Made by a program: the position numbers and the translations under genes. A DNA stretch of 42,212 nt from an uncultured Pelagibacteraceae bacterium (GTDB lineage Bacteria; Pseudomonadota; Alphaproteobacteria; Pelagibacterales; Pelagibacteraceae), in NCBI GenBank assembly GCA_902579215.1, contig CACHGH010000008.1, forward strand, positions 1 to 42,212, in the 5' to 3' direction. Below are positions 4,100 through 22,798 of the stretch, one piece after another. Position 1 is the first letter of the stretch; every line of letters starts with the position of its first letter. The notes beneath the pieces were generated by a model. It worked only from the letters and a program-made list of their open reading frames with translations, searched no databases and was not told where the DNA came from.

Positions 4100-4654
4100 A
4101 TGAAACTATCAGGATCATATCAAATAAAGTTAGAAAAACAAAAGGTTTGGGAAGCTTTAAATAATCCTGAAATTCTTCAAAAATCTATTCCTGGATGTGA
4201 AGAATTTAAAAAAAATTCTGATACTGAATTTTCAGCAACTGCAAAAAATAAAATTGGTCCTTTTAATGCTACCTTTACAGGAGAGATAGAGCTTAAAGAT
4301 TTAAATCCACCTCATAGCTATAAAATTGTTGGATCAGGCAATTCTCCAGTTGGTTTTGCTAATGGAGAGGCTTCTGTAACTTTAGAGGATTTTGAGAATG
4401 GAACAAAGCTTAACTACACTGTTGAAGCTAATGTGGGAGGAAAAATTGCTCAAGTTGGATCACGTCTAATAGACATGACTGCAAAAAAAATGGCAGATAT
4501 TTTTTTTGGAAAATTTTCTGAGTTGGTTTCTTCTAAAGATGAAAAACCAGTTGTTGAAGTTAAAGAAAGTTCACAAACACTAATTCCACGTGAAAAAAAA
4601 ATCTCACAAAAAATCATTTATATATTTATCTATAATAATCATAATAATAACTAG
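4100..4654 (+). CDS. coxG: CoxG-like SRPBCC protein, probable C-terminal frameshift
   Basis: 184 residues as read. Residues 1-145 form a CoxG/SRPBCC domain, with the typical QKVWEALNNPEIL and SIPGCEEF motifs near the start. CoxG proteins lie beside CO-dehydrogenase-like genes and are implicated in attaching the enzyme to the membrane, usually through a C-terminal hydrophobic helix. As read, the C-terminus is a polar Asn-rich tail. If one A is removed from the nine-A run at 4593-4601, translation instead continues to a TGA at 4671-4673 and gives 190 residues ending in a basic stretch plus a strong membrane helix (FIYLSIIIIIITSIYLIS). I think this is the true tail. The structural genes begin about 90 bases further on. 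Confidence 0.85.
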   Translation: MKLSGSYQIKLEKQKVWEALNNPEILQKSIPGCEEFKKNSDTEFSATAKNKIGPFNATFTGEIELKDLNPPHSYKIVGSGNSPVGFANGEASVTLEDFENGTKLNYTVEANVGGKIAQVGSRLIDMTAKKMADIFFGKFSELVSSKDEKPVVEVKESSQTLIPREKKISQKIIYIFIYNNHNNN

Positions 4655-4702
4655 TATTTATCTTATAAGTTGAATCGCGTTAAAGTAGAATCTATTATAT
4701 TT

Positions 4703-4722
4703 TATTGTTGAGTACGACAATA
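4703..4722. promoter_or_regulatory. Inverted repeat upstream of coxS, possible operator
   Basis: Arms TATTGTTG (4703-4710) and CGACAATA (4715-4722) pair at 7 of 8 positions around a 4-base centre. It lies 42 bases before the coxS ATG in the only spacer of this cluster long enough for a promoter. The size and symmetry suit a dimeric regulator site; no particular regulator is recognised. It could also be chance in AT-rich DNA. Confidence 0.35.
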
Positions 4723-4764
4723 TTGTGTGTTTAAATTAACAAATACTAGGGGGGTAAAACTAAT

Positions 4765-5226
4765 ATGACAAAGGTGTCATTAGAAGTTAACGGAAAGAAA
4801 GTTGTTAAAGAAATTCCTGACCACACTACCTTATCAGTTTTTTTAAGAGAAATTTTAAACTTAACGGGAACACACGTCGGTTGCGACACAAGTCAATGCG
4901 GAGCATGTGTGGTACACGTTGATGGAAAATCAATAAAAAGTTGTACCGCTTTAGCTGCTGACCTTAATGGTTCAAAAATTACAACTATAGAGGGACTTGT
5001 ATCAAATGGAAAAATGCACCCTATGCAAGAGGCTTTTAAAAAAACCCATGGTCTACAATGTGGTTTTTGTACGCCAGGGATGGTGATGAGCGCGATTGAT
5101 TTACTAAACAATAAAAAAAATCCTAGTGATAAAGAAATCAGAGATTGGTTAGAGGGCAATATTTGTAGATGCACAGGTTATCAAAATATAATTGCAGCGG
5201 TTAAAGAAGCTGCAACAAAAATGTAA
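4765..5226 (+). CDS. coxS: Molybdenum hydroxylase small subunit, two [2Fe-2S] clusters (CoxS-like)
   Basis: A 153-residue iron-sulfur subunit of the xanthine oxidase/CO dehydrogenase family. It has the plant-ferredoxin-type cluster ligands Cys40, Cys45, Cys48 and Cys60, then the second cluster ligands Cys99, Cys102, Cys134 and Cys136 (CGFCTPGM and GNICRCTGY). It passes electrons from the molybdenum centre to the FAD subunit. Length is standard. A purine-rich AGGGGGG at 4748-4754 sits 10 bases before the ATG as a somewhat unusual ribosome binding site. It heads the S-L-M order typical of form II enzymes, and the large-subunit gene follows 15 bases later. Confidence 0.93.
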
Positions 5227-5241
5227 AAAGGAGATATTAAT

Positions 5242-7617
5242 ATGGCAAGTTTGGTTGGATCTAGAGTTGAAAGAAAAGAAGACAAAAAACTTTTAACTGG
5301 TAGAGGTAAGTATACAGCAGATGTAACTTTTGCTCACCAAACATATGCATATTTTGTACGATCTCCACACGCAAGAGCACAAATTAAAAATGTAGATATT
5401 TCAAAAGCTGTAAAAGCTTCGGGCGTTGTATCAGTTCTTACAGGTAAAGATATTGTTAATGATAAAATTGGAGGACTAATAGCGGGTTGGAGAATTAAGA
5501 GTGAAGATGGTTCTGATATGAAAGTTCCCCCTCATCCACCTTTAGCGAGTGAAAGTGTAAATTACGTTGGTGATCATGTGGCTGTAGTAATTGCAGAAAG
5601 TCTTGACGAAGCTAGAAATGCAGCAGAATTAGTTAAAGTAGACTATAAAGTTTTAAAAGCAGTAGTTAAAACAGATGAAGCAATGAAATCTGATAATATT
5701 TATAAAGATATTCCGAAAAATTTATGTTTCGATTGGCTTTTAGGGGATAGAGCAAAAGTTAAAGAAGCTTTTGATAAAGCTGATAAAATAATAAAAATTG
5801 ATTTAATTAATAATAGACTAATTCCAAATGCTATGGAGCCTAGAGCAGCAAATGCAGATTATAATCCATCAACGGAAGAAATAACTTTATATACTACAAG
5901 TCAAAATCCTCATTTAGCTAGAATAATAATTTCTGCATTTAATGGTGTTGCACCAGAAAATAAATTAAGAGTTATAGCTCCAGATGTTGGTGGTGGTTTT
6001 GGTTCAAAGATTTATCCATATGCGGAAGAAGTTGTTTGTAGTTGGGCGGCAAAGAAAATCGAAAGACCTGTGAAATGGGTTGCAGATAGAACAGAGTCTT
6101 TTTTATCTGATTGTCATGGCAGGGATCATGTTACTCATGCTGAACTTGCAGTTAAGAATGATGGAACTTTTTTAGGTTTTAAAAATGAAACTATAGCAAA
6201 TCTTGGAGCATATGCTTCAGTTTTTGGAACTGTTACACCAACTTATTTATTTGGTCCTTGTGCGACTGGAGTTTATAAAATGCCTGCAGCCTACTCAAAT
6301 GTAAAAGCAGTTTATACTAATACTGCACCAGTTGATGCATATAGAGGAGCAGGAAGACCGGAAGCAACATATACAATTGAAACTCTTGTAGAAAAAGCAG
6401 CAAGGGAGCTAGGTATGGATCCTGCTGAAATTCGTATGAAAAATTTTCCTACTCAGTTTCCATTTCAACAAACTTTAGTTCATTCAGTAGACTCAGGAGA
6501 TTATGTTGGAGGTTTGAAAAAAGCAATGGAAGTTGCTGACTATAAAGGATTTGAAAAACGAAAGAGAGATTCAGCTTCAAAAGGTAAGTTAAGAGGAATA
6601 GGACTATGTTCATACTTTGAAGCATGCGGGATAGCGCCATCGCCTGTTGTTATGATGTTAGGTTGTGGAATAGGTTTATGGGAGTCTGCTGAAGTAAGAT
6701 TTAATCCTACTGGCAATGTTACTGTTTTTACAGGTTCACATAGTCATGGACAAGGACACGATACTACATTTGCCCAAATAGCAGCAGATCAGCTAGGAGT
6801 TCCAATTGAAAATATTGAAATTTCACATGGAGATACTGATAAAGGACCTTTTGGATATGGAACTTATGGATCAAGATCTTTAACTGTTGGTGGTACTGCA
6901 ATTGTAAAAGCTTGCGATAAAATAGTAGCTAAAGGAAAAAAAGTTGCAGCTAAAATGCTAGAAGTAAGTGAGAGCGATGTAGAGTTTAAAGATGGAGAAT
7001 TTATAGTTGCAAAATCTAATAAAAAGAAAACTATTGGTGAGATAGCTTTCGCTTGTTATTTACCTGGAACTTATGGTGAAGTTAAGTCACCACTTCCTGA
7101 AGGTGAAGAGCCAGGTTTAAAAGAAACTTCTTTCTTTGACCCAGTTAATTTTTCTTTCCCAGCAGGCTCTCATATTTGTGAAGTTGAAGTAGATCCTGAT
7201 ACAGGAAAAGTAGAATTAGTTAAATATACAGCTGTCGATGATTTTGGTACAATAATAAATCCTTTAGTAGTTGAAGGACAAGTCCACGGAGGTTTAGCGC
7301 AAGGAATAGGACAAGCTCTTCATGAAAATTGTCATTACGATGATTCAGGCCAACTTGTAACAGCATCTTATATGGATTATACGATGCCTAGAGCTGATAA
7401 CTTCCCTAACTTTGAATTAGGTTTTACTTGTACACCAGCTACATCAAATCCATTAGGAACTAAAGGATGTGGTGAAGCAGGAGCAATTGCAGCACCACCA
7501 ACTGTAATGAATGCGGTAATGAATGCAATTGGAACAGAAATATCGATGCCCGCAACTGCCGAAAAAGTTTGGAAAGCATGTCAAAAAATGAAAAAAGCAA
7601 ATTCAGAGGCGGCCTAA
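5242..7617 (+). CDS. coxL: Molybdenum hydroxylase large subunit, form II CoxL-like
   Basis: A 791-residue molybdopterin-cytosine-dinucleotide-type catalytic subunit. It opens with GSRVERKEDKKLLTGRG, the family N-terminus, and carries GGGFGSK (about residue 250). The active-site loop is AYRGAGR at residues 366-372, the form II version; true form I CO dehydrogenases have AYxCSFR with a copper-binding cysteine, which is absent here. Glu745 in GCGEAGAI matches the catalytic glutamate of the family. The enzyme therefore probably hydroxylates some substrate, but CO oxidation is not assured. Length is normal, there is no signal peptide, so a cytoplasmic or membrane-attached enzyme is expected. RBS AAGGAG precedes the ATG. 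Confidence 0.92.
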   Translation: MASLVGSRVERKEDKKLLTGRGKYTADVTFAHQTYAYFVRSPHARAQIKNVDISKAVKASGVVSVLTGKDIVNDKIGGLIAGWRIKSEDGSDMKVPPHPPLASESVNYVGDHVAVVIAESLDEARNAAELVKVDYKVLKAVVKTDEAMKSDNIYKDIPKNLCFDWLLGDRAKVKEAFDKADKIIKIDLINNRLIPNAMEPRAANADYNPSTEEITLYTTSQNPHLARIIISAFNGVAPENKLRVIAPDVGGGFGSKIYPYAEEVVCSWAAKKIERPVKWVADRTESFLSDCHGRDHVTHAELAVKNDGTFLGFKNETIANLGAYASVFGTVTPTYLFGPCATGVYKMPAAYSNVKAVYTNTAPVDAYRGAGRPEATYTIETLVEKAARELGMDPAEIRMKNFPTQFPFQQTLVHSVDSGDYVGGLKKAMEVADYKGFEKRKRDSASKGKLRGIGLCSYFEACGIAPSPVVMMLGCGIGLWESAEVRFNPTGNVTVFTGSHSHGQGHDTTFAQIAADQLGVPIENIEISHGDTDKGPFGYGTYGSRSLTVGGTAIVKACDKIVAKGKKVAAKMLEVSESDVEFKDGEFIVAKSNKKKTIGEIAFACYLPGTYGEVKSPLPEGEEPGLKETSFFDPVNFSFPAGSHICEVEVDPDTGKVELVKYTAVDDFGTIINPLVVEGQVHGGLAQGIGQALHENCHYDDSGQLVTASYMDYTMPRADNFPNFELGFTCTPATSNPLGTKGCGEAGAIAAPPTVMNAVMNAIGTEISMPATAEKVWKACQKMKKANSEAA

Positions 7618-7629
7618 CAGGATTTTTTT

Positions 7630-8415
7630 ATGAAAACATTCAATTATCATTCAACAAAAGATGTTAAGGAAGCAACTAAATTAGCTTCTTCAAGTTCAGC
7701 ATTTTTAGCAGGAGGAATGACTACTATCCCTTCTATGAAATTAGGTTTAGCCTCTTATAAAGATATTATAGATATAAAAAGGATAAAAAAATTATCTGGC
7801 ATAAAAGTAAGCGCTAAGTCGGTTACAATAGGTTCTACAACAAAACATGTTGAGGTTGCGAATTCTAAAGAAGTAAAAAAAGCTTTACCTTCTTTATCTG
7901 CGTTAGCTGAAGGTATAGGCGACCCTCAAGTTAGAAATAGAGGCACTATTGGGGGGTCAATAGCAAATAACGATCCATCAGCAGACTATCCATCAGCTTG
8001 TATAGCTTTAAACGCAACTATTCACACAAATAATAGAAAAATAAGTGCTGATAAATTTTTTACAGGAATGTTTGAAACATCGCTTAAAAAAGGAGAGTTG
8101 ATAGAAGCAATTGAGTTTCAAATTCCAGAAAAGTCTTGTTATCAAAAATATCCAAACCCAGCATCAAGATATGCTATAGTTGGTGTATATGTTGCAAAAC
8201 ATAAATCTGGAGTAAATGTTGCAGTGACTGGAGCTAAATCATGCGTTTATAATGAAAAAAATATTTCAAATGCACTTTCAAAAAATTTTTCAGCTTCTTC
8301 AATAGACAATGTTGTAGTTTCATCTAGCGGTATAAATTCTGATATCCACGCGTCAGCAGAATATAGAGCAAATATGGTTAAAGTATTTGCAAAAAAAGCT
8401 GTTGAAGCTTGCTAA
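7630..8415 (+). CDS. coxM: Molybdenum hydroxylase medium subunit, FAD-binding (CoxM-like)
   Basis: A 261-residue FAD subunit of the xanthine dehydrogenase/CO dehydrogenase family. The two FAD-binding glycine motifs are present: LAGGMTT near residues 26-32 and TIGGSIANNDPSADYP from residue 106. It takes electrons from the CoxS iron-sulfur subunit and hands them to an acceptor. It follows the large subunit by 12 bases. It is slightly shorter than the usual 270-290 residues, mainly in the C-terminal domain, with no sign of a break. Position third (S-L-M) is as in form II clusters. Confidence 0.92.
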   Translation: MKTFNYHSTKDVKEATKLASSSSAFLAGGMTTIPSMKLGLASYKDIIDIKRIKKLSGIKVSAKSVTIGSTTKHVEVANSKEVKKALPSLSALAEGIGDPQVRNRGTIGGSIANNDPSADYPSACIALNATIHTNNRKISADKFFTGMFETSLKKGELIEAIEFQIPEKSCYQKYPNPASRYAIVGVYVAKHKSGVNVAVTGAKSCVYNEKNISNALSKNFSASSIDNVVVSSSGINSDIHASAEYRANMVKVFAKKAVEAC

Positions 8416-8445
8416 TTAAATCATTCAGTATTAACTTAAAATCAA

Positions 8446-8775
8446 ATGAAAAATTCATTTGATGAAAAAATTTTAGAAGAAGCAAACGATTGGATAAATA
8501 CTAATCAAAGAGTTGTTCTTGCAACTGTCATTCAAACATGGGGATCATCACCACGACAAGTTGGAAGTAGAATGATCGTTAATGAAAAGGGAGATTTTTC
8601 TGGCTCTGTTTCTGGCGGTTGCGTTGAGTCTGCAGTAGTAAGAGAATGTATTGATTTAATTAAAGATAATAAACCATGTAAAAAAATTGAATTCAAAGTT
8701 TCCAACGAAAGTGCCTGGGAAGTAGGACTTGCTTGTGGAGGAGAAATTGCAGTCTATTTAGAACAGATAATTTAA
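8446..8775 (+). CDS. XdhC/CoxI-family maturation factor, N-terminal domain as separate protein
   Basis: A 109-residue protein covering only the first domain of XdhC/CoxI, with the signature VIQTWGSSPRQVGSRM and SGSVSGGCVE (about residues 29-67). XdhC-type proteins bind molybdenum cofactor and help insert the sulfurated cofactor into molybdenum hydroxylases. In many bacteria this domain is fused to a Rossmann domain; here that half is the next gene, whose ATG follows directly on this TAA (8773-8775/8776). The two are presumably translationally coupled and act together on the enzyme encoded just upstream. Confidence 0.88.
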   Translation: MKNSFDEKILEEANDWINTNQRVVLATVIQTWGSSPRQVGSRMIVNEKGDFSGSVSGGCVESAVVRECIDLIKDNKPCKKIEFKVSNESAWEVGLACGGEIAVYLEQII

Positions 8776-9456
8776 ATGAAGCATTCTCAACTTAAGGAAA
8801 TAATTAAAAAAAAAGCTTCAAAGACAGAATTTGCAATCGTAACCAATCTTGCAAACGGTTTAAGTGAAATATATGAGCCTGGAAAATCATTAAGCAAAGA
8901 ATTTGAAACCCACAAAGAACAAATTGATAATTTTTTTAAATTAAAAAAAAATGGAGTAATAGAAAAAACAGAAATATTTGTTGAAACATATATTAGACCT
9001 ATAAAAGTTATTATTGTAGGTGCAGTTCATATAGCTCAATATCTTGTAGATTTTGCAAAAAGCTTAAATTTTGAAATTTCTATTATAGATCCACGCGGTT
9101 ATTTTGCATCGGAACAAAGATTTCCAGATTTAAAAATTATTAATAAATGGCCAGATGAAGCTTTCAAAGAAGTAGAAACAAATGAAAACTCAGCTTTAAT
9201 TGCGCTAACCCATGACCCCAAAATAGACGATCCAGCATTACAACATGCTATTAATAAAAAATTTTACTACATAGGAGCGTTAGGTAGTAAAAAAACTCAT
9301 GAAAACAGATGTAAAAGATTAAAAGATGCAGGATTTAAAACAGAACAAATTAATTTAATACATGGTCCTATTGGTATTAAACTAGGTGGAAGATCAGCTC
9401 CTGAAATAGCACTATCTATTATTGCTCAATTGGTTTCCGAAACTTATAAAAAATGA
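8776..9456 (+). CDS. XdhC/CoxI-family maturation factor, C-terminal Rossmann domain protein
   Basis: A 226-residue partner of the preceding gene. Residues 1-75 are a variable region; from about residue 77 it has the XdhC Rossmann fold, with VIIVGAVHIAQYL, a second-strand DPRGYFA motif, ALTHDPKIDDPAL, and YIGALGSKKTHENR, ending in the conserved HGPIGIKLGGRSAPEIALSI segment. The glycine loop reads GAVHIA where many homologues have GAGHVA. The role is insertion or sulfuration of molybdenum cofactor in the upstream enzyme (family knowledge). It overlaps the next gene by 4 bases (ATGA at 9453-9456), showing tight operon structure. Confidence 0.88.
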   Translation: MKHSQLKEIIKKKASKTEFAIVTNLANGLSEIYEPGKSLSKEFETHKEQIDNFFKLKKNGVIEKTEIFVETYIRPIKVIIVGAVHIAQYLVDFAKSLNFEISIIDPRGYFASEQRFPDLKIINKWPDEAFKEVETNENSALIALTHDPKIDDPALQHAINKKFYYIGALGSKKTHENRCKRLKDAGFKTEQINLIHGPIGIKLGGRSAPEIALSIIAQLVSETYKK

Positions 9457-10025
9457 TCAAAGCAATTCTTCTTGCTGCGGGACAGTCTACGAGATTAAAA
9501 AATGAAAATAAATTAATAAAAAAATTTAAAAATAAGTCATTAATAAGTTATCCGCTTAATTCATTAATAAAAAGCAATGTTAATAAAATTATAATCGTTT
9601 TAGGTCATGAAAGTGTAAAAATAAAAAGAATTATAAAAAAAAATAAAAAAATTAACTTTGTTATTAACAAAAAATATAAATCTGGAATATCTTCATCAAT
9701 TAAAACTGGACTTAAAAAAATATCAAAAAAAGATAGTGGCTTTATCATTGTTCAATCTGATATGCCATTCATCAAAACCACAATTATAAATAAGATTTGC
9801 ACTTCAATTACAAAAAAAAAATATCTTATTCATGCGCCTAAATTTAAAAAAAAAATAGGAAATCCAATAGGTTTTGATATTTCTTTAATAAATAAATTTA
9901 AAAAAATAAAGGGCAACATTGGAGCTAAGTTTATGGTTAAAAGACTTAAAAAAAGTACAAATTTTATAAAAGTCTCATCAGGCAAATTCTTTAAAGATTT
10001 TGATTTATCTAAAGACTTTAATTAA
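9453..10025 (+). CDS. MobA-like NTP transferase (molybdopterin cytidylyltransferase type)
   Basis: A 190-residue nucleotidyltransferase with the N-terminal LLAAGQSTRLKNENKLI loop that binds the nucleotide and VQSDMPFI (about residues 99-106), corresponding to the family GDMP metal-binding motif. In this context it most likely attaches CMP to molybdopterin (MocA-type) to make the dinucleotide cofactor used by xanthine-dehydrogenase-family enzymes. The usual G-x-x-K in the loop is replaced by N-E-N-K, and the protein is unusually Lys/Ile/Asn-rich, with two uninterrupted ten-A runs that keep the frame. It closes the cox cluster, and its stop codon interlocks with that of the convergent gene (10022-10025). 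Confidence 0.82.
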   Translation: MIKAILLAAGQSTRLKNENKLIKKFKNKSLISYPLNSLIKSNVNKIIIVLGHESVKIKRIIKKNKKINFVINKKYKSGISSSIKTGLKKISKKDSGFIIVQSDMPFIKTTIINKICTSITKKKYLIHAPKFKKKIGNPIGFDISLINKFKKIKGNIGAKFMVKRLKKSTNFIKVSSGKFFKDFDLSKDFN

Positions 10026-10801
10026 CCGTTAAACTTAAATAAAAGGTCTGTATAATTTATCTTTATAGTTAGGCTTTTAGATATATTCGAATAATTAATT
10101 TTAGGATTATTCAGGTTATTTCTCTTAAATACTAATTTGTAATTGTATTTTTCCAATAATTGTAAAAAATATTTATATTGAAAGAAAAAACAGTAATTAA
10201 TTTGAGGCCAAACATTAACTTGCCTTACTACAAAACGATTTTTTTTTAAATTTTTATAAAGAGAAGTCCCAGAAAAAAATATAAATTTTGGTTTTTTTTT
10301 TGAAATAAGATTTATAACTTCATTATAATCATGCATATATTGAATAACGCTACCAAAATATACAAAATTGATTTTGTGTTTTTTAATATCTTGAATTTTT
10401 ATTAATGATTTAAATCTCTTAAGCTTTTTAATTTTTGAAAATTTATCTACGATTTTGTTGTTAATCTTTTGATCAAAATAAATATATTCTAGATTCTTAT
10501 TTTTTTTAGATAAAAATAAATAGTTATCAATAAATTGCGCACCTATATCTAAGAAATAAATTTTCTGTTTTTTTTTAAATATTTTTTTTAATAAAATATC
10601 TATTTTAGGGTAGCTAATATTTGGTATTAATTCAGGGTTAGCAATATACTTTTTACAAGTATCTTCTAGTATTTTTTTATTTAATCCAAAAGGATAATTA
10701 TTTTTAGGTAATTTATCTAATTCAGTTTTAATAAAAAAAAGTCTTCTTTTTTTTATTATTTTTTTTATTATTTTTTTTTTAAAATAATCAATTATTTTCA
10801 T
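10022..10801 (-). CDS. Putative SAM-dependent methyltransferase (TIGR04325/LIC12133-like)
   Basis: 259 residues, very basic and low-complexity (Lys, Ile, Asn, Phe). A motif-I-like YFLDIGAQFIDNYLF around residue 79 and FVYFGSVIQYMHDY around residue 147 resemble a family of putative methyltransferases usually found in surface-polysaccharide clusters. I recognise the family only moderately, and SAM binding is inferred. Its start overlaps the moaE stop by 14 bases, so it is the last gene of moaACDE. A role in molybdenum cofactor chemistry is not known for this family. The extreme AT-rich coding suggests weak constraint or a different history from its neighbours. Confidence 0.6.
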   Translation of the reverse strand: MKIIDYFKKKIIKKIIKKRRLFFIKTELDKLPKNNYPFGLNKKILEDTCKKYIANPELIPNISYPKIDILLKKIFKKKQKIYFLDIGAQFIDNYLFLSKKNKNLEYIYFDQKINNKIVDKFSKIKKLKRFKSLIKIQDIKKHKINFVYFGSVIQYMHDYNEVINLISKKKPKFIFFSGTSLYKNLKKNRFVVRQVNVWPQINYCFFFQYKYFLQLLEKYNYKLVFKRNNLNNPKINYSNISKSLTIKINYTDLLFKFNG

Positions 10802-11243
10802 TTACATTAATAGGATTTCCTTTTAACCATTGACTATCTTTATTTTTGTAATGTTCTTTTTTCCAAATAGGTGATCTTTTTTTTATTTCTTCAATAATAT
10901 ATCTGGACAAATCATATGCCTCAGATCTGTGTGGACAGGCTACAGCAATTATAATGCTTATCTCTCCAAGTCCCACATATCCTTTGACATGTTCAATAAA
11001 CACAGACTTTTCTTTAATATTTAGTTTTTTATCAGCCTCATCATATATTTCTTTAAAGCTTTTAATTACAAGCTCGTCATGACTATCATAAGTAATTCCA
11101 GTTACTTTTTTTTCTTCATTATCTTCTCTTACAGTTCCATAAAATACTATTGAAGCTCCAAATTTAGACGAAGAGATGAAACTTTCTGCTTTTTCTAAAT
11201 TAATTTTTTCTTTTGAAAGATCTATAATTTTTGCATGAAGCAT
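10788..11243 (-). CDS. moaE: Molybdopterin synthase catalytic subunit
   Basis: A 151-residue large subunit of molybdopterin synthase, which adds two sulfurs to cyclic pyranopterin monophosphate using thiocarboxylated MoaD. Visible family motifs are ASIVFYGTVRED near the N-terminus, ACPHRSEAYDLSRY, and KKRSPIWKKE with the catalytic lysines near the C-terminus. Length is standard. Its ATG shares one base with the moaD stop codon (TAATG at 11241-11245), so the two subunits are translationally coupled. Confidence 0.93.
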   Translation of the reverse strand: MLHAKIIDLSKEKINLEKAESFISSSKFGASIVFYGTVREDNEEKKVTGITYDSHDELVIKSFKEIYDEADKKLNIKEKSVFIEHVKGYVGLGEISIIIAVACPHRSEAYDLSRYIIEEIKKRSPIWKKEHYKNKDSQWLKGNPINVNENN

Positions 11244-11512
11244 TAACCACCTCCGATAGGAGGGATAATTCCAATTTTTTGATCTTTAGTAATCTTATAA
11301 CTATCTGAAACAATATTATTGTTCTCAGAGCAAAATGCAGATGTTTCAATTATTTTTTTAAAATCTTTATTTCCTTTAAAATTTTTATCAACATAATTTA
11401 TTATTTCATTTCTAAGATCGCTTATCGAGCTATTACTACTCAATTTAAGTTCTAAAAAATCTTTATCACTTAAATCTTTACTCGCACCAAATAATTCAAG
11501 TTTTATTTTCAT
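11243..11512 (-). CDS. moaD: Molybdopterin synthase sulfur-carrier subunit
   Basis: An 89-residue ubiquitin-fold protein ending in PPIGGG; the terminal Gly-Gly is the site that is adenylated and thiocarboxylated. It begins MKIKLELFG, as the family does. The open frame extends further upstream to 11578, but that would overlap moaC by 65 bases and add a non-homologous leader, so I chose the ATG at 11512, which lies one base after the moaC stop. It works as a heterotetramer with MoaE. The adenylating enzyme (MoeB) is not encoded in this window. Confidence 0.9.
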   Translation of the reverse strand: MKIKLELFGASKDLSDKDFLELKLSSNSSISDLRNEIINYVDKNFKGNKDFKKIIETSAFCSENNNIVSDSYKITKDQKIGIIPPIGGG

Positions 11513-11513
11513 T

Positions 11514-14465: not shown

Positions 14466-14492
14466 TAGTTTAAAAAGTTTTAAAATTAATTA

Positions 14493-14819
14493 ATGAAAAT
14501 TAGTAAATTTTTATTAATTCTATTCTTTATATTTAGCGCAAACATTCAAAAATCATTTTCTGACGATGACAAAATGATTAAAGGGCTTGAAATCTTTAAT
14601 GAGATAGCTGGTTGTGCAGGATGTCATATATTGAAGGCAGCAGGTTCCGAGGGTAATGTTGGACCAAATTTAGATACAGTAAGTCTTACAGAAGACTCAG
14701 TTAAAGAAATGGTAACTTACGGACTTGGTGTTATGCCTGCATATGGAGAAGAAAATATTTTAACAAAAGAACAAATAGATATTGTATCTTTTTATGTGGC
14801 CAATACTGCTGGCAAATGA
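14493..14819 (+). CDS. Periplasmic monoheme cytochrome c, electron acceptor of the sulfite dehydrogenase
   Basis: A 108-residue protein with an N-terminal signal peptide (about residues 1-23, hydrophobic core FLLILFFIF) and one heme c site, CAGCH at 41-45. A methionine in GLGVMPAYGE is the likely axial ligand. Its size is like the SorB or SoxD-type single-heme partner of sulfite dehydrogenases, and it follows the molybdoenzyme by 27 bases. It would take electrons from the molybdenum centre and pass them to the respiratory chain. Heme attachment needs the cytochrome c maturation system; a CcdA gene lies 3.7 kb downstream. The stop overlaps the next ATG (ATGA at 14816-14819). Confidence 0.85.
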   Translation: MKISKFLLILFFIFSANIQKSFSDDDKMIKGLEIFNEIAGCAGCHILKAAGSEGNVGPNLDTVSLTEDSVKEMVTYGLGVMPAYGEENILTKEQIDIVSFYVANTAGK

Positions 14820-15652
14820 AAAATATTTTAACTGAAACTGAAATAAACAATTTCAAAAAAGATGGAGCTGTTTTTTTAAAAGGCAAATTTGATGTTAGTT
14901 GGATAAAAAAACTTCAAACCGGAATAGAAAAAGACATAAAAAATCCAAGTCCAAGATTTAAATCTCATACTTTGGAAAAAGGTGTTCCTGCTTATTTAGA
15001 AGATTATTGGACTTGGCATTTAGTTCCAGAATTTAAAGATTTTGTATTCAATTCACCTTATGCAAAAATAGCATCAGAATTAATGTCTGCTAAAAAAATA
15101 AATCTTGTTATGGACAACTGGTTTTTAAGAGAAGGTGGATCTAAATCTAAAACCCCTTTTCACCATGATGTAAGTTATTTTGATATGGAAGGCACAATGT
15201 GTGTACTTTGGTTACCACTCCAACCAAGCAAAAAAGACGAAGGTGTAGCTTGGGTTAAAGGATCACATTTATGGAATAAGTTATTTTTAAGAGTACTTTT
15301 TAAAGATGGACATAAAATTGAGGGTGATGAATGTGTAATCAATGGAAAGAAATATGAAACACCCCCAGATATTTTGGGAAATAAAGATAAATATGAATTT
15401 TTAAATTGGGATTGTGATTTAGGTGATTGTGTAATTTTTGACATGAGAACATTGCACGGCGCACTTAGCGCATCTATACCAGATAAAACTTTAAGTCGTT
15501 ATACTTTAAGAGTCGCAAAAGAAGATGCAAAAATAAGTTATATTGGCGATTGGACAAGTTACAACTATAGAAAAGCAATGCAAGAAGCTGGATATAAAAA
15601 TGGAGATCCGTTAGGTGGCGACATGTTTCCAACTTTATATGAAGCCATCTAA
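14816..15652 (+). CDS. Phytanoyl-CoA dioxygenase (PhyH) family Fe(II)/2-oxoglutarate oxygenase
   Basis: A 278-residue cytoplasmic protein of the PhyH family. The iron-binding triad is visible as His116-x-Asp118 (in PFHHDVSYF, with His117 adjacent) and His214 in RTLHGALS. A jelly-roll core surrounds these. Family members hydroxylate many small molecules, so the substrate is unknown. Its ATG overlaps the cytochrome stop codon, so it is translationally coupled to the sulfite dehydrogenase genes. That pairing is unexpected and may point to a substrate whose breakdown releases sulfite, though this is only a guess. A perfect hairpin begins at its stop codon. Confidence 0.82.
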   Translation: MKNILTETEINNFKKDGAVFLKGKFDVSWIKKLQTGIEKDIKNPSPRFKSHTLEKGVPAYLEDYWTWHLVPEFKDFVFNSPYAKIASELMSAKKINLVMDNWFLREGGSKSKTPFHHDVSYFDMEGTMCVLWLPLQPSKKDEGVAWVKGSHLWNKLFLRVLFKDGHKIEGDECVINGKKYETPPDILGNKDKYEFLNWDCDLGDCVIFDMRTLHGALSASIPDKTLSRYTLRVAKEDAKISYIGDWTSYNYRKAMQEAGYKNGDPLGGDMFPTLYEAI

Positions 15653-15679
15653 CTTCCAGTTTAAAAAAACTGGAAGTTA
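15650..15679. terminator. Perfect 13-bp hairpin between convergent genes
   Basis: TAACTTCCAGTTT (15650-15662) pairs perfectly with AAACTGGAAGTTA (15667-15679) around an AAAA loop. It begins within the stop codon of the PhyH gene and ends 12 bases before the stop of the convergent GYD gene. There is no long T tract on either side, so it is a non-canonical intrinsic terminator or an RNA 3'-end protecting structure, usable from both directions. Confidence 0.75.
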
Positions 15680-15691
15680 AGAATTTGGTCT

Positions 15692-16015
15692 TTATTTACC
15701 TGGTTCTTTATATCCTGAAGCCATTTTTTTGGCAGTTTCTGCAATTTTATTTAGATCTACATCTTCCAAAATTGTAAAATCAGAAACAGCTCCACTTCCT
15801 ACTGCAGTCATTGCAGCGGCAGCACATTGTTCAAAAGTACCCTCTATCTCTGCCATAAAATCATACTTACCTCTTAGTCCAGCATAACGAGTCACTTTTG
15901 CTCCAACAGAAGCAGCAAGTGCAGATGTAGCAGCTTTTCTATCTGTATTTGGATTACTTATGAATCCAGCTAGACCTTTTGCTGTGTAACATCCTAATGT
16001 TATAAATTTAGCCAT
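15692..16015 (-). CDS. GYD domain protein
   Basis: A 107-residue soluble protein matching the GYD-domain family: an N-terminal beta strand AKFITLGCYTAKGLAGF, then ALAASVGAKVTRYAGLRGKYDFMAEIEG, where the GKYDF segment corresponds to the GxYD motif that names the family. Function is unknown; the ferredoxin-like fold suggests an oligomer. The frame extends 11 codons further up, but AAGGAGG lies just before the ATG at 16015, so that start is preferred. It has its own promoter region shared with the divergent aldehyde dehydrogenase operon. Confidence 0.85.
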   Translation of the reverse strand: MAKFITLGCYTAKGLAGFISNPNTDRKAATSALAASVGAKVTRYAGLRGKYDFMAEIEGTFEQCAAAAMTAVGSGAVSDFTILEDVDLNKIAETAKKMASGYKEPGK

Positions 16016-16118
16016 AAAAACCTCCTTTCTTAAATATGAAAATAACATTATTAATTAAAATATGATAATGCATAAATTGCATAGTGGACACAACTTATAG
16101 TAATGTTAAATTAAATTT
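16016..16118. promoter_or_regulatory. Divergent spacer with separated TAACATTA / TAATGTTA repeats
   Basis: The 103-base AT-rich spacer between the GYD gene and the aldehyde dehydrogenase operon holds TAACATTA at 16043-16050 and its exact reverse complement TAATGTTA at 16101-16108, 50 bases apart. The same half-site occurs as a close inverted repeat before the sulfite dehydrogenase gene. A short ATGCA-N5-TGCAT dyad lies at 16068-16082. Shared regulation is possible, but such AT-rich octamers can occur by chance. Confidence 0.3.
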
Positions 16119-17561
16119 ATGTACGAAAAATTTGGTCAATTTATTGATGGCAAATGGCAACAGTCAGCAGACAAAGGAACTTACGAAGTAATTAATCCAG
16201 CAACAGAGGAAGTAATTGGAAAAGCATCGAAAGCAACACCAAAAGATGTTGATGAAGCATTAAAATCTGCAGAAAAAGGTTTAATAGTTTGGAAAAAAAC
16301 AGCACCTTGGCAAAGATCATATATTTTAAGAAAGATCGCTGACAAAATGAGAGAAAAACAAGATGTGTTAGCAAAATGGATGACATTAGAAGTTGGTAAA
16401 CCTTTTGCTGAAGCTAAAGGTGAAGTTGGTGGGGCAGCAGATATTTTTGAATGGAATGCCGAAGAAACAAAAAGAATTTATGGACAGACTGTAGAGAGTA
16501 GATTTCCAGATACAAGAGTTCATGTTTATTATCAACCAGTAGGTGTTGTTGCTGCTTTATCTCCATGGAACTTTCCATTAGTTTTATCTTCTAGAAAAAT
16601 TTCAACCGCACTTGCTGCAGGATGTTCAGTTATAATTAAACCAGATGTAATAACCCCAGGAACAGTAATGGAGTTAGTTGATATTTGTAGGGAATGTGGA
16701 GTGCCACCTGGTGTAGTTAATTTACTCTCAGGAGATCCACCAAGTATAGCATCACAATTAATTGCATCAGATATAGTAAAGAAAATTTCAATTACTGGTT
16801 CATCAAGAGTAGGTAAATTAATATTAAAGCAAGCTGCTGATAAAGTTCAAAGAGTTACAATGGAATTAAGTGGTCATTCACCTTTTATAGTATTTGATGA
16901 TGCAGATATTAAAAAAGCAGCTGATATGGCAGTAGCCTCTAAGTTTAGAAATAATGGTCAAGTTTGTATTTCTCCTAACAGATTTTATATTCAAGAAAGT
17001 AAAAAAGATGAGTTTGTGAATTTATTTGTCGAAAAAACAAAAAAATTAAAAATAGGAAATGGAATGGATCCAGATGTTCAGCTAGGACCAATTACAACAA
17101 AGAAAAGATTAAACGAGATAGAGGACCTAGTAGAAACTACAAAAAAAGAAGGAGCTAAAGTATTATTAGGTGGAAAAAGACCTTCTGGATTTAATAAAGG
17201 TTATTTTTACGAACCAACAATATTTGATGATGTGAAAGATAATTTTACAATAATGAAAATAGAACCTTTTGGTCCATTGGTACCTATGTTGTCCTTTAAA
17301 TCATTTGATGAAGTAGTAGAAAGAGCTAATAATCATGAATTAGGTCTTGCAAGCTATATATGTACAAACTCTATGGAAAGAGCTCACAAGGCTTCTGAGT
17401 TAATGGAAACTGGTACAGTAGCAGTAAACACGCCAGTAGTTGCGATAGCTGAAGCACCTTTTGGAGGAATTAAACAAGCTGGATATGGAAGAGAGGGTGG
17501 TTCTATGGCAATAAAAGATTATCTAAATGTTAAATATACTCATCTAGGTTTAAAAGGATAA
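16119..17561 (+). CDS. NAD(P)-dependent aldehyde dehydrogenase (succinate-semialdehyde dehydrogenase-like)
   Basis: A 480-residue aldehyde dehydrogenase of normal length. The catalytic nucleophile is Cys283 in NNGQVCISPNR, and the general base is Glu249 in MELSGHSP. The cofactor-binding stretch LSPWNFPLVLSSRKISTALAAG is present near residue 150, and GSSRVG is the nucleotide loop. Overall similarity in motif form is to the succinate-/glutarate-semialdehyde dehydrogenase group, but the true substrate is open. Its stop shares a base with the ATG of a 39-codon gene, and an FAH-family hydrolase and CcdA follow in the same direction. Confidence 0.9.
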   Translation: MYEKFGQFIDGKWQQSADKGTYEVINPATEEVIGKASKATPKDVDEALKSAEKGLIVWKKTAPWQRSYILRKIADKMREKQDVLAKWMTLEVGKPFAEAKGEVGGAADIFEWNAEETKRIYGQTVESRFPDTRVHVYYQPVGVVAALSPWNFPLVLSSRKISTALAAGCSVIIKPDVITPGTVMELVDICRECGVPPGVVNLLSGDPPSIASQLIASDIVKKISITGSSRVGKLILKQAADKVQRVTMELSGHSPFIVFDDADIKKAADMAVASKFRNNGQVCISPNRFYIQESKKDEFVNLFVEKTKKLKIGNGMDPDVQLGPITTKKRLNEIEDLVETTKKEGAKVLLGGKRPSGFNKGYFYEPTIFDDVKDNFTIMKIEPFGPLVPMLSFKSFDEVVERANNHELGLASYICTNSMERAHKASELMETGTVAVNTPVVAIAEAPFGGIKQAGYGREGGSMAIKDYLNVKYTHLGLKG

Positions 17562-17680
17562 TGGCTAAGAAGAAATCAAATAACAATTCCATATCGTCAG
17601 CATTTGCTAGAATAGGAATATTTTACTATTACACATTTTTTTGGGTGTTGATTTTATTATATTTATTTTTCAAAGGTTAA
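17561..17680 (+). CDS. 39-residue single-pass membrane peptide, hypothetical
   Basis: A short frame in the gap between the aldehyde dehydrogenase and the FAH-family gene. It starts with ATG sharing the last A of the upstream stop (TAATG) and ends with TAA 4 bases before the next ATG, so it fits the operon exactly. The peptide has a basic/polar start (MAKKKSNNNS), then from about residue 18 one aromatic-rich membrane segment (FYYYTFFWVLILLYLFF) and a short basic end. This is the expected shape of an inner-membrane small protein with its N-terminus inside. Function unknown; it could accompany CcdA or be an accessory of a membrane complex. Not a recognised family. Confidence 0.6.
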   Translation: MAKKKSNNNSISSAFARIGIFYYYTFFWVLILLYLFFKG

Positions 17681-17684
17681 TTAA

Positions 17685-18527
17685 ATGAAATTTTTAAGAG
17701 TAGGGAACCTGGGAAAAGAAATACCCGCGATTTTAGATAATAAAAATAAAATAAGAGATCTTACATCTATAATTAAAGACTTAACTCCAGATACGATAAA
17801 TTTTAAAATTTTGGAAAAAATTAAGGAAATAAATATAGAAAGTCTGCCAGAAATAAAAAATATAGGGCGTATTGGAGCATGTATTTCAAAACCTGGAAAT
17901 TTTTTTGCAGTTGGTTTAAATTATAGCGAGCATGCAAAAGAAACTGGTGCAGAAACTCCAAAACATCCAGTGCTTTTTAATAAATCAGTTCATTCCATTG
18001 TAGGACCAAATGACGATGTAATTATTCCAAAAAATTCTCAACAGTTAGATCATGAAGTAGAAATAGCTTTCGTTGTAGGTAAAAAAGCTAAATTAGTTTC
18101 AGAAAGCAACGCTCAAGATTATATTTTTGGTTATTGCATATGTAATGATATCAGCGAAAGGCAATGGCAAAAGGAAAAAGGAGGTCAGTGGGTTAAAGGA
18201 AAATCTGGAGATACCTTTGGGCCAATTGGACCTTATTTGGTTACAAGCGATGAAATTAAAAATTTAAACGATATCAATCTTTCTCTTGAAGTTAACGGAA
18301 AAAAACATCAAACAGGAAATACTAGCGATATGATATTTAATTTTAATTTTTTACTTTCACATATTAGTAACTTTATTACACTAATGCCTGGTGATATCGT
18401 TACAACTGGAACACCTCCTGGTGTAGGTATGGGAATGAGTCCTCCTGTTTTTTTAAAAAATGGGGATATAATGAAACTTTCTGTAGATAACTTAGGTGAA
18501 CAAATTACAAAAGTAATAAAAGAATAA
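17685..18527 (+). CDS. Fumarylacetoacetate hydrolase (FAH) family protein
   Basis: A 280-residue enzyme of the FAH superfamily, which cleaves or decarboxylates 2-oxo/acylpyruvate compounds at a Mg/Mn centre. The metal ligands fit Glu124 and Glu126 (LDHEVEIAFVVG) and Asp155 (CNDISERQWQ). FAVGLNYSEHAKETG and KGKSGDTFGPIGPYLV are the usual active-site segments, and TTGTPPGVGMG is near the C-terminus. The N-terminal 60 residues form the small family domain. Together with the upstream aldehyde dehydrogenase it suggests a catabolic operon, perhaps for an aromatic or sugar-acid derived compound, but the substrate is not readable. Confidence 0.88.
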   Translation: MKFLRVGNLGKEIPAILDNKNKIRDLTSIIKDLTPDTINFKILEKIKEINIESLPEIKNIGRIGACISKPGNFFAVGLNYSEHAKETGAETPKHPVLFNKSVHSIVGPNDDVIIPKNSQQLDHEVEIAFVVGKKAKLVSESNAQDYIFGYCICNDISERQWQKEKGGQWVKGKSGDTFGPIGPYLVTSDEIKNLNDINLSLEVNGKKHQTGNTSDMIFNFNFLLSHISNFITLMPGDIVTTGTPPGVGMGMSPPVFLKNGDIMKLSVDNLGEQITKVIKE

Positions 18528-18532
18528 ATATT

Positions 18533-19240
18533 ATGATTGAAATATTTATTGCTTTTGGCGCAGGCTTACTAAGTTTCTTATCTCCTTGTGTTTTACCATT
18601 AATTCCAGGTTATATTTCTTATGTATCAGGCAGTTCGTTAAATGAATTATTAGAAAAAAAGGAAATTAATTTAATTCCAACTATTTTGTTTGTATTTGGA
18701 TTTTCTCTTATATTTATATTTTTTGGTGCTACAGCAACTACAATAGGAAAGTTACTGTTAAAAAATTCAAATGAATTAAGAATAGTTGCTGGTACAGTTA
18801 TAATTATTTTATCTCTTCATATTTTAAAGGTAATTAATATAAAATTTCTCAACTACGAAAAAAGAGTTCACTCTGAAATTAACCAAGGATTTTTTGCACC
18901 TATATTAATCGGAATGGCTTTTGCTTTTGGCTGGACTCCTTGTATCGGTCCAATGCTTGGATCAATTTTAATTTTAGCATCAACCACAGAAAGTATAAGT
19001 CAAGGCGTTATATTGCTATCTTTTTACTCTTTAGGTCTTGGCATTCCTTTTATTTTATCTGGATATTTGATTCAAAAATTTATTTTGATTTCAAAAAATT
19101 TAAAACAAAAAATGAATGTAATAGAAAAAACTGGAGGAACTTTACTTCTTTTAACAGGGTTTTTAATTATTACAGATCAACTTCAAATTTTAGGATTTTA
19201 CCTTCTTGAATATTTACCTTTTTTAGGAAAAATTGGTTAA
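18533..19240 (+). CDS. ccdA: Cytochrome c biogenesis protein CcdA (DsbD-like thiol transporter)
   Basis: A 235-residue membrane protein of the CcdA/short DsbD type with about six helices. It has the two cysteine-proline motifs that carry electrons across the membrane, Cys19 in LSPCVLPLIPGY and Cys137 in GWTPCIGPMLG. CcdA moves reducing power to the periplasm, keeping apocytochrome CxxCH cysteines reduced for heme attachment. That links it in function to the monoheme cytochrome at 14493. It lies 5 bases after the FAH-family gene and converges with a DMT exporter gene with no gap. Confidence 0.9.
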   Translation: MIEIFIAFGAGLLSFLSPCVLPLIPGYISYVSGSSLNELLEKKEINLIPTILFVFGFSLIFIFFGATATTIGKLLLKNSNELRIVAGTVIIILSLHILKVINIKFLNYEKRVHSEINQGFFAPILIGMAFAFGWTPCIGPMLGSILILASTTESISQGVILLSFYSLGLGIPFILSGYLIQKFILISKNLKQKMNVIEKTGGTLLLLTGFLIITDQLQILGFYLLEYLPFLGKIG

Positions 19241-20101
19241 TTATTTTTTTTCAGGTTTATTAAATACTATTAACATTACTCCAATGATGATTATAGCTCC
19301 TCCAATAAATAATTCTTTAGTTGGTTCTTCTCCTAGCAGAAAAATTGCAGCTAAAAGACCAGTAGGAGGTATCCCCATAGTAACTATGGGAAGCACTTTG
19401 TATAAAGGATTATTTTTTAAAACATAATAGAAACAACCATATGTTATGGGCTGCATAATAAATCCTAAATAAATTGCAATCATCCATACTTCAAAAGTTG
19501 CTGCCTTAAAGTAATCAATTGTATTTCCATCAAATACAGCCGAAAGTCCTATTAATATTGGCCCAGAAAACAAACCTAACCAAGCAACAAGTGCAAGCGG
19601 ATGTATTTTTTTACTTAATGGTTTTACCAATACTTGTCCTAAAGCCCAAACAGCAGATCCAATAATTGTTAATGTTACACCAAAAATTTTACCATCTAAA
19701 TTTGGCGAGCCAGTTAAAATATACACTCCAACAAACGCTATACTTATTCCAATTAGACTTCTTACAGTCGGTTTTTCTTTAAGCATAAAATATGCAAAAA
19801 CAACACCAAAAGGAACTTCAGTTTGAACTAGCAATACAGCTGCTGATGCATCTATTAAACTTAAACCTGTGTATGTAATGCTATACTGAAGAGTGTTAGC
19901 TATAAGAGAAGCAAAAAAAATTTTTTTTAGATAACTTTTTGGTATTGGAAACCACCAAATTAGAAGTAGTGCTACAAAAGTAAACCTTAAACCCATCAAT
20001 AAAAAAGGAGGCAGGTACTCCATTGCAGGTTTAGCAATAACAAAGCCAAATCCTAAAAAGATTGGAACTATTGCAGCTATTAAAGAATCACGAAGCGTCA
20101 A
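19241..20101 (-). CDS. EamA/DMT-family membrane transporter
   Basis: A 286-residue ten-helix transporter of the drug/metabolite superfamily, with the internal duplication of EamA domains (first about residues 5-130, second about 145-280). It begins at a TTG whose TTGA overlaps the TGA stop of the upstream dioxygenase gene (20098-20101), so the two are translationally coupled. Substrate unknown; the coupling suggests the precursor or product of the dioxygenase, for example a betaine. It ends in a basic FNKPEKK tail. Confidence 0.85.
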   Translation of the reverse strand: MTLRDSLIAAIVPIFLGFGFVIAKPAMEYLPPFLLMGLRFTFVALLLIWWFPIPKSYLKKIFFASLIANTLQYSITYTGLSLIDASAAVLLVQTEVPFGVVFAYFMLKEKPTVRSLIGISIAFVGVYILTGSPNLDGKIFGVTLTIIGSAVWALGQVLVKPLSKKIHPLALVAWLGLFSGPILIGLSAVFDGNTIDYFKAATFEVWMIAIYLGFIMQPITYGCFYYVLKNNPLYKVLPIVTMGIPPTGLLAAIFLLGEEPTKELFIGGAIIIIGVMLIVFNKPEKK

Positions 20102-21201
20102 AGATTAAATTTTCTTTTTAGATGCCTCAATTTACCCTCAGTACTATCAAAATCTATATAGCAACCTTGTAAAAATCTTTTTCCTTCTTTAGGGTCAAAT
20201 TTAGTTCTACCATGTAAAATTCTATAATTATCCATCATCATAAGATCTTTAGGTTCTAATTTAAATTCTATTCTATACTTTTCTGAATTATACAAATCAG
20301 ATAACTTCTTTCTTGATTTATAATATAAATCAAGTTTATTTTTTTCTAACATTGGAACATAATCTAATCTAGGGCTAAATCTTACTTGTTTAAATTCTTT
20401 ATTTTCATCTAAATGAATTAGTTCTGACCAATCTTCTAAAACAACACTTTTATCAGTAAATTTAAATCTAACTTTAACCTCTGAAAGAATTTTGTAAGCA
20501 TCAGGATCTTCTTTTTTAAGATTTTCTGTAACTGTAAAACCATCAACTAGTGTTGAAAACCCTCCTTTAACTTCATTTTCAATACAATGCAGTAACTGTA
20601 TACAAGGTACTGGATTTCGATAAGGGTTATCCGTATGAGGACTTAGTGGTAAAGTAGTGTAAGCTAAATCATTTGGATCATTTTTAGACTTAACGTCAAA
20701 ATATTCCCCAAAATTTGTTCTTCTTACACTTCCAACCGAATTAGCAAAATCAACAATAAAATTATTTTTTGTAGGTACATTTTTTATAATAACAAAACCA
20801 AATTCGTAAAAAGAAATTAATAAATCATACATTTCTTTTGATTCATGAAAGTTATCATTATATTTAAATTTTTTTACATCTTTTAAAGTTGAGTCCCACA
20901 TTTTTTTAGGAATTGATTTTACAACTGTATCTTTATTTAAAAATTCTATTTCAAGTTTATTAATATTTATTCTGGAATTAACACCATCATTAAAACCTAC
21001 TTCAAGAAAACCATTTTTAATTTGAGCTTTTTCAATAATTATTTTTCTATCCATTATTGACGGATCAAATAATCTTTGTTGAGTACCTTTATCTAAAAAT
21101 TTATCACCATCTACTCTTTCTCTTAACCAAAAAGGATGAATTTCTTGAACTGAATTACCATTATTTAAGAAAACTTTGTTATCATTTAGTTCAATTTTCA
21201 T
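20098..21201 (-). CDS. Gamma-butyrobetaine dioxygenase-like Fe(II)/2-oxoglutarate oxygenase
   Basis: A 367-residue enzyme with the two-part layout of gamma-butyrobetaine/trimethyllysine hydroxylases: an N-terminal DUF971-type domain (residues 1-95, with EIHPFWLRERV) and a TauD-type catalytic domain. Iron ligands are His189, Asp191 (HTDNPYRNP) and His330 (YRILHGRTKF). The family hydroxylates trimethylated amines at an unactivated carbon. SAR11-type bacteria are known to use methylated amines and betaines, which fits. It could act on another betaine rather than make carnitine. It is followed by a coupled DMT transporter gene. Confidence 0.82.
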   Translation of the reverse strand: MKIELNDNKVFLNNGNSVQEIHPFWLRERVDGDKFLDKGTQQRLFDPSIMDRKIIIEKAQIKNGFLEVGFNDGVNSRININKLEIEFLNKDTVVKSIPKKMWDSTLKDVKKFKYNDNFHESKEMYDLLISFYEFGFVIIKNVPTKNNFIVDFANSVGSVRRTNFGEYFDVKSKNDPNDLAYTTLPLSPHTDNPYRNPVPCIQLLHCIENEVKGGFSTLVDGFTVTENLKKEDPDAYKILSEVKVRFKFTDKSVVLEDWSELIHLDENKEFKQVRFSPRLDYVPMLEKNKLDLYYKSRKKLSDLYNSEKYRIEFKLEPKDLMMMDNYRILHGRTKFDPKEGKRFLQGCYIDFDSTEGKLRHLKRKFNL

Positions 21202-21269
21202 AAGTTTTTCAAAGGATTATTTAAAATTTAGCTTTAATCAAGATAAATAAAATAGTATGTGATCAATTA

Positions 21270-22073
21270 ATGACCAAATTAAATTCAAAAAATATGAGAG
21301 TTTTTGCTAGATTTTTAAATAGCTTGGCAAGAGATATGACAAAGTTTTATTATTCCAAGCTTAACAAACCTTTTAAAGTAGATAATAAACTAAGAGGAAA
21401 AGGTTATGATCCTGTCACCTCAGCTGATAGAGCTTTTGAAAAATTTATACGATCGAAAATTCATAAGAAGTTTCCGATGCACACAATTATAGGAGAGGAA
21501 TTTGGTTCAAAAAAAACAAAAAGTGATTTTTCTTGGGTAATTGACCCTATAGATGGAACAAGATCATTTGTAATCGGCAATCCTACTTGGAGTAATTTAA
21601 TTTCCTTAAACTACAAAGGTGAACCCCAATGTGGTTTGGCAAATTTTCCAATGTTAAAGAAGTATTATTTTAATACATCAAAAAAAAATGCTTATGTTGT
21701 TAGCAATGGAAAAAAAAGAAAAATATTAGTAAATAAAAAAGCAACTTTTAAAAATGTTAAAGTATCTGCAGCATTTCATGGGTGGCTTCCATTGCAAAAG
21801 CAAAAAAAAATTCCTAAAATTCTAAAACTTATGCAATTTCCATGCTCTGACGCATTAAGTTATGCCCATCTTTGTGAAGGAAAAATTGATGTGGTCATAC
21901 AATGTCAAAATAAAATATGGGACATACATGCATTGATTCCAATAATTTCAGCTGCAGGGGGCACTGTAACTAATTGGAAAAATCAAGATGCAACTCGTGG
22001 AGGAAATATATTAGTTAGTGCTAATAGATCTATACATAAAAAAATGTTAAAACTTTTAAAGCCTGTGCTTTAA
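21270..22073 (+). CDS. Inositol-monophosphatase-family phosphatase, probable histidinol-phosphatase
   Basis: A 267-residue Mg-dependent phosphatase. The metal site residues are Glu76-Glu77 (IIGEEFG), Asp92 and Asp95 (DPIDGTRSF) and Asp218 (IWDIHALIPIISAAGG). The motif spacing and the SADRAFEKFIR segment resemble the HisN histidinol-phosphatase branch more than classic inositol monophosphatases, but I cannot separate them with certainty. Length is normal. One base separates its stop from the next gene, the broken amidotransferase, so they likely share a transcript. Confidence 0.8.
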   Translation: MTKLNSKNMRVFARFLNSLARDMTKFYYSKLNKPFKVDNKLRGKGYDPVTSADRAFEKFIRSKIHKKFPMHTIIGEEFGSKKTKSDFSWVIDPIDGTRSFVIGNPTWSNLISLNYKGEPQCGLANFPMLKKYYFNTSKKNAYVVSNGKKRKILVNKKATFKNVKVSAAFHGWLPLQKQKKIPKILKLMQFPCSDALSYAHLCEGKIDVVIQCQNKIWDIHALIPIISAAGGTVTNWKNQDATRGGNILVSANRSIHKKMLKLLKPVL

Positions 22074-22074
22074 A

Positions 22075-22798
22075 ATGAACGTTATTATTTTACAACATAT
22101 AAAAGTTGAAGATCCAGGATTTATTAAGGATCTAATGATTCAAGATGGAATAAAATTAACCACTATTGAATTAGATGAGGGACAAAAAATACCCTCTGAT
22201 CTATCAAAATTTGATGCAATGTTCTGTATGGGAGGGCCAATGGATACATGGATGGTAAAAGATTTTCCTTGGCTTGTTGAAGAAAAAAATAAAATAAAAC
22301 AATTTGTTATTGATTTAAAAAAACCATATTTAGGTTTTTGCCTTGGGTGTCAATTATTAGGTGAAGTAGTTGGTGGTAAAGTTGTAAGGTCTAAAAATCC
22401 AGAAATTGGAATGTTAAATATAAATTTTTCATCAAAAAAAAAAAAATGATTTATTATTTTCTTCGTTTCCAGAAAAAATTACTTCTTTACAATGGCATTC
22501 TTACGAAGTTCAAGATCTTGAAAAAAATAATGATATAACTTTAATTGCTTCTTCTCCAGAAACTAAATATCAAATTTTTAAATACCAAAATCATGCTTAT
22601 GGAATTCAATTTCATATTGAGGTAAAAAATACAACAGTTGGTGACTGGGGATGTGTACCTGAATACAAATCTGCATTAGAAAAACAATTAGGTGAAGGTG
22701 CATTAGATAAATTTGAGAAAGACTCTCATAAACATATGCCCAGTATGAACAAATATTCAAAAATTTTATACGAAAACTTCAAAAAACTAGTGGCATAA
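22075..22798 (+). pseudogene. Class I glutamine amidotransferase (GMP-synthase-like), frameshifted at an A13 run
   Basis: The frame from ATG 22075 gives 124 residues with the oxyanion GGP motif (residues 53-55) and nucleophile Cys89 in GFCLGCQLLG, then stops at 22447-22449 right after thirteen As (22434-22446). In the next frame, 22448-22798 continues with the rest of the domain, including the catalytic His-x-Glu in GIQFHIEV and a normal C-terminal region. Removing one A gives an unbroken 240-residue GMP-synthase-like GATase1 protein, the usual size. The second part has no start of its own. The rest looks well conserved, so this is either a very recent break, a sequence error, or a gene read by slippage. 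Confidence 0.85.

Follow-up and report, generated by a model that had tools for sequence, protein, structure and literature searches.

Single-base poly(A) frameshifts in coxG and an amidotransferase gene of a draft Pelagibacter genome are probably homopolymer-length errors

The window considered here, by which we mean the entire 42,212-base stretch that was analysed, is the whole of contig C8 of a draft Pelagibacter genome (G000; 1.01 Mb, 33 contigs, 82.8% complete), and two of its genes, both on the forward strand, are interrupted at runs of A. As read, the first is a CoxG-family ORF of 184 residues (4100–4654; Pfam COXG, 2.6e-31) that ends in an out-of-frame, hydrophilic stretch. Compared with its intact relatives it has one extra base in an A9 run (4593–4601), and a frameshift-aware alignment to one intact homologue contains a single event, +1, inside this run. 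The continuation in the other frame (4602–4673) encodes a C-terminal hydrophobic anchor; the best 17-residue hydropathy of the tail is 0.39 as read and 2.71 with one base removed.

At the best 80 of 159 coxG loci the hydrophobic tail is in frame without exception (80/80, with a hydropathy of at least 1.82 in all), and by eye it is also in frame at 12 same-genus and 2 same-class loci, which overlap with the 80-locus set; locus L044 is not an ortholog. A8 runs are present in the coxG tail of several close relatives. In the named records these best 80 of 159 relatives are for the most part Pelagibacteraceae (SAR11); many carry AG- or SCGC- names, which we take to mark single-cell genomes, and some titles read MAG. 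G000 is itself probably a single-cell genome. The gene is accessory, with strong-score orthologs in 13 of the 149 other genomes searched (genus or class), or in 14 once two same-class orthologs are counted and a weak match is set aside; counting all matches, the same search returned 16 of 150 genomes, a figure that takes in the genome of the window and the weak match, and a further search gave a match in one of five genomes.

One proposal makes CoxG a membrane protein that binds quinone and passes on electrons from CO dehydrogenase (PMC13240472), and its anchor should therefore matter. We considered a designed pair of soluble and anchored CoxG products, an idea disfavoured by the anchor being in frame at every one of the best 80 of 159 loci. 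The large molybdenum hydroxylase subunit adjoining coxG (5242–7617) has AYRGAGR at residue 366; this is the form II motif, and CO oxidation by form II is described as unresolved (PMC13240472), so the cluster next to coxG may not encode CO dehydrogenase. Two adjacent ORFs (8446–8775 and 8776–9456) bear XdhC_CoxI and XdhC C-terminal domains.

The second interrupted gene encodes a class-I glutamine amidotransferase. As read, its ORF has only 124 residues (22075–22449; Pfam GATase, 1.3e-11) and runs into an A13 run with one extra base (22434–22446), beyond which a second part of approximately 120 residues (22447–22798) is found in the other frame by translation and by alignment to the protein of G012, a complete genome of the same genus. 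The frameshift-aware alignment to that protein (residues 1–239) contains a single event, one additional base within A13. An ortholog is present in 55 other genomes of the genus, and in 53 of these its frame is intact, at 239–260 residues; of the two exceptions, G063 ends at a contig end and G001 is broken elsewhere, by one extra T in a T run. In 29 related loci the longest A run at the site ranges from 4 to 9, and the two loci that reach 9 are both in frame. Ordinary decay of coxG and the amidotransferase would account for the interruption of each ORF, but each gene has a single lesion, and amidotransferase identity is normal on both sides of the break (0.68 and 0.73, over 60 residues each). 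We therefore disfavour gene decay as the main cause and regard it as scarcely credible.

An earlier note on this DNA had claimed that both breaks lie at A runs and that each has one A too many, and the alignments, together with the homologous continuation in the other frame, bear this out. Its observation that two A10 runs (9812–9821 and 9846–9855, on the forward strand) keep their frame also stands, since both lie inside an uninterrupted MobA-like NTP transferase ORF of 190 residues (9453–10025). Not every run is affected, as it had said: the window contains 26 A or T runs of at least 9, of which 23 are in listed ORFs, and two of these 23 are frame-breaking. After curation, a screen based on G012 found no further run-linked breaks in the window.

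In this screen, each G012 protein with a match was aligned to G000 by a frameshift-tolerant method; of the 890 proteins aligned, 868 were covered to more than 70%. Hand curation of the 26 events kept 12 and dropped 14: seven close to ORF ends (R0133, R0142, R0162, R0348, R1228, R1325 and the first event of R1262), R0449 (41% identity over two ORFs), R0518 (a 71-residue ORF), R0545 (two compensating events), R0690 and R0760 (+1, away from runs of at least 6) and R1260 (three in-frame stops). The coxG break was absent from the screen output and was added by hand. G000 thus has 13 curated breaks linked to runs of at least 6, and all 13 are +1. Before curation there were 14 events of +1 and four of −1 at runs of at least 6, and at runs of at least 8 all nine were +1. 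It is this shared sign that is beyond chance, not the pair of breaks itself: finding two of 13 within one 42-kb contig is not unusual (P(≥2) = 0.10).

The breaks amount to approximately 1.6 per 100 kb (13 in 799,059 nt of assessed coding sequence), and lie at one A6, two A7, four A8, one T8, four A9 and one A13 run. Set against the number of A runs available, the broken fraction rises from A6 to A9 (1/2382, 2/1433, 4/735 and 4/336, respectively), yet it is 0/138 for A10–A12, 1/3 for A13 and 0/1 for A14. Runs of at least 8 in the assessed sequence number 1213 for A and 181 for T, and we found no poly(A)-specific effect beyond composition (A:T 12:1 among breaks and 5028:1319 among runs of at least 6; Fisher P 0.49). 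The earlier note had proposed counting runs of 9 or more throughout the genome and asking how many break frames. Run-linked breaks do occur beyond the window, but although the tracts of both window genes reach 9, only 5/13 of the breaks genome-wide are at runs that long.

The genes broken in G000 include tsf (EF-Ts), nusA, tsaC/Sua5 (two events), purL, trpE, thrC and proB. Apart from coxG and the amidotransferase, ten genes are concerned. The intact G012 proteins of proB, thrC, tsf, trpE, purL and tsaC/Sua5 pass the NCBIfam curated cut-off, as does the C-terminal repeat of nusA, the only piece of that protein that was searched; among the remaining broken genes, an acyl-CoA dehydrogenase and a LysE-like protein fall below the NCBIfam cut-off and one gene is without a match. 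EF-Ts, NusA and TsaC are essential. In tsaC/Sua5 the two +1 events lie 148 bases apart (C18:5920 and 6068), at A8 and A9.

We consider it likely that both window breaks are single-base homopolymer overcounts in the draft of a Pelagibacter genome that probably came from a single cell. The extra A would have been introduced at amplification, sequencing or assembly, and both genes are probably intact in the cell, which would make an anchored CoxG and an amidotransferase of full length; we infer, that is, that the cell's own DNA lacks the extra base. Of the three explanations that the earlier note had offered, a systematic error in homopolymer length has the most support: the breaks are missing in close relatives, they share one sign, they hit essential genes too, they become more frequent from A6 to A9, other drafts show breaks of this kind, and their rate is compatible with assembly error, a benchmark of one marine single-cell workflow having reported 3.0 assembly indels per 100 kb (PMC6122165). 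Homopolymers are said in a single-cell paper to yield indel errors easily (PMC7325909), and an early Prochlorococcus single-cell study reported 0.70 gaps per kb from 454 data alone (PMC2731171). Breaks are also weakly closer to contig ends than length-matched runs (median 6.1 kb versus 12.5 kb, P 0.034), a weak signal that fits thin coverage playing a part.

Several observations pull the other way. Errors should be commonest at long runs, yet none of the 138 coding A10–A12 runs is broken, and in one benchmark single-cell assemblies of Prochlorococcus, likewise a marine cell with a small genome, tended towards the lowest indel counts (PMC5519541). Breaks are sparse in relatives: 121 further loci, approximately 377 kb aligned, contained two (+1 at A9 and −1 at A5), a rate that is biased low because the loci were picked by an intact gene and came partly from repeated genomes. 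The output of that screen had 11 rows, in which the two breaks appeared twice each; the other seven all fell at the start of a single reference ORF and were dropped. The case for error is weaker at A13 than at A9. Removal of one A from the amidotransferase site would still leave A12, a very long run even in frame, and this makes a genuine slip more credible there than in coxG.

Two of the genes broken in G000 were followed through the genus. The tsf gene is split in G000 and G044 (65 of 96 genomes had a match), and splits in purL occur in G000, G006 (two of them), G032, G072 and G089; for purL, 75 genomes had an ortholog, and a weak match brings the total to 76. All six tsf and purL events in these five relatives are +1, at A runs of 7, 8, 9, 9, 9 and 11. 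G006 and G032 each have a +1 at the same purL A run near residue 185, which is A7 in one and A8 in the other; either common descent or a slip that happened twice might account for this. In G012, by contrast, the signs are mostly opposite, with 10 events of −1 and two of +1 after curation (sign difference from G000, P 2e-5), and 14 of −1 and four of +1 at runs of at least 8 before it. Curation of the G012 events removed those that mirror G000 breaks as well as those that are paired or close to ORF ends; several of the events kept come from alignments at approximately 50% identity. The opposite sign is what a technical cause would predict, since biology should give one sign per genus whereas the data source may differ; the contrast between G000 and G012 rests on one complete genome. 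Three neighbouring genes of G012 (C1:1010490–1012664), aligned with G000 C9:34079–37104 at approximately 50% identity, have events at A9, A11, A11 and A13 runs, and this cluster of long-run breaks could reflect either error or tract variation.

The extra bases might alternatively be real and recent replication-slippage expansions in a lineage lacking MutS, with coxG and the amidotransferase accessory enough for their loss to be tolerated for a while. A MutS_I domain was found in none of the 61 genomes of the genus and order that were searched and in 11 of 14 controls, and mutS and mutL are reported missing from SAR11 subclades Ic and IIa.A (PMC12374537); with MutS not found, real poly(A) mutations are also to be expected. 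The restricted distribution of coxG (13–14 of 149 other genomes) fits such tolerance. Coding runs of at least A11 are depleted relative to synonymous shuffles (0.64 of expectation in G000 and 0.49 in G012), as if they were costly; for runs of at least A10 the values are 0.81 and 0.67. The lack of MutS and the depletion of long runs together suggest that real poly(A) mutations probably do occur, and at a cost. More generally, coding A or T runs of at least 10 in the two genomes are rarer than in shuffles, T runs more so, and runs of 7 are not depleted. Two points count against this explanation, which we regard as unlikely: genuine breaks in EF-Ts, NusA and TsaC would kill the cell unless they were rescued, and one mutational process in one genus should not give G012 the opposite sign. 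The earlier note's suggestion that tracts vary between cells is plausible in a lineage where MutS was found in 0/61 genomes, but alone it does not explain the broken EF-Ts, NusA and TsaC genes of one genome. If such variation were phase variation, with tracts switching between cells by design, the long mononucleotide runs and the failure to find MutS would be in keeping with it; the failure of relatives to preserve a long run at the amidotransferase site (4–9 in 29 loci) and the scatter of the breaks over housekeeping genes make this extremely improbable.

The remaining explanation is that the extra As are real and that slippage during transcription, or frameshifting by the ribosome, rescues part of the product to full length, in which case CoxG would exist in soluble and anchored forms. 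The earlier note had pointed to endosymbionts with AT-rich genomes, and there such rescue has indeed been reported or proposed, essential genes included: a review gives corrected transcripts of 12–50% in two endosymbionts (PMC5009743), and in Blochmannia vafer correction was proposed for eight tract frameshifts, some of them in essential genes (dnaX, dnaG, pth) (PMC3017870). By length alone, slippage is feasible at A9 and A13. Its extension to the present genome finds less support. Eight of the 13 breaks are at runs of 6–8; the shifted frame is unconserved in the best 80 of 159 coxG loci; and the window frameshifts are not kept in the relatives examined, which are different species. In a survey of Buchnera transcripts, homopolymer tracts held 151 of 157 insertions and 16 of 57 deletions, and that report describes no frame restoration as detected (PMC5574713); this weighs against rescue, because the loss of an A that would be needed here is the minority kind of change inside runs. 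Our searches of a limited literature collection found no paper on SAR11 and transcriptional slippage, and none on SAR11, frameshifts and single amplified genomes. On balance, the short runs, sign, privacy and number of the breaks weigh against rescue, even though rescue of essential genes has itself a precedent elsewhere, and we judge it decidedly improbable. Taken to its full extent it would require a free-living SAR11 without detectable MutS to bear a dozen or more private expansions per genome, in EF-Ts and NusA too, to stay alive by slippage in transcription or translation, and to make both soluble and anchored CoxG, a combination that we hold to be very improbable indeed.

Homopolymer-length error thus remains our preferred reading, and as a biological feature the pair of breaks is most likely not real. 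If the cause is technical, single draft SAR11 genomes are unfit for calling pseudogenes or isoforms at A runs: CoxG would be misread as a soluble protein, and purL, trpE and thrC as lost. If instead the breaks were real, an abundant free-living lineage would be tolerating broken essential frames, which would be very surprising.

Three known systems offer points of comparison. The slippage-corrected frameshifts of Buchnera and Blochmannia (PMC5009743, PMC3017870) likewise consist of single A- or T-tract indels in otherwise intact genes of AT-rich, reduced genomes, but the G000 breaks are private, lie mostly at runs shorter than 9, and would need a deletion to be corrected. The homopolymer under-counting described for 454 data (discrepancies noted in PMC2731171) resembles the present case in being an error of A-run length, and G012 is mostly one base short at A9–A13 runs, whereas G000 differs from it in sign. 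The assembly indels of single-cell genomes (PMC6122165) differ in that the benchmark, in its available text, carries no breakdown by homopolymer or sign, and G000 may come from another workflow; they are like the G000 breaks in the order of their rate (approximately 1.6 versus 3.0 per 100 kb), in being private to a genome, and in falling on either strand.
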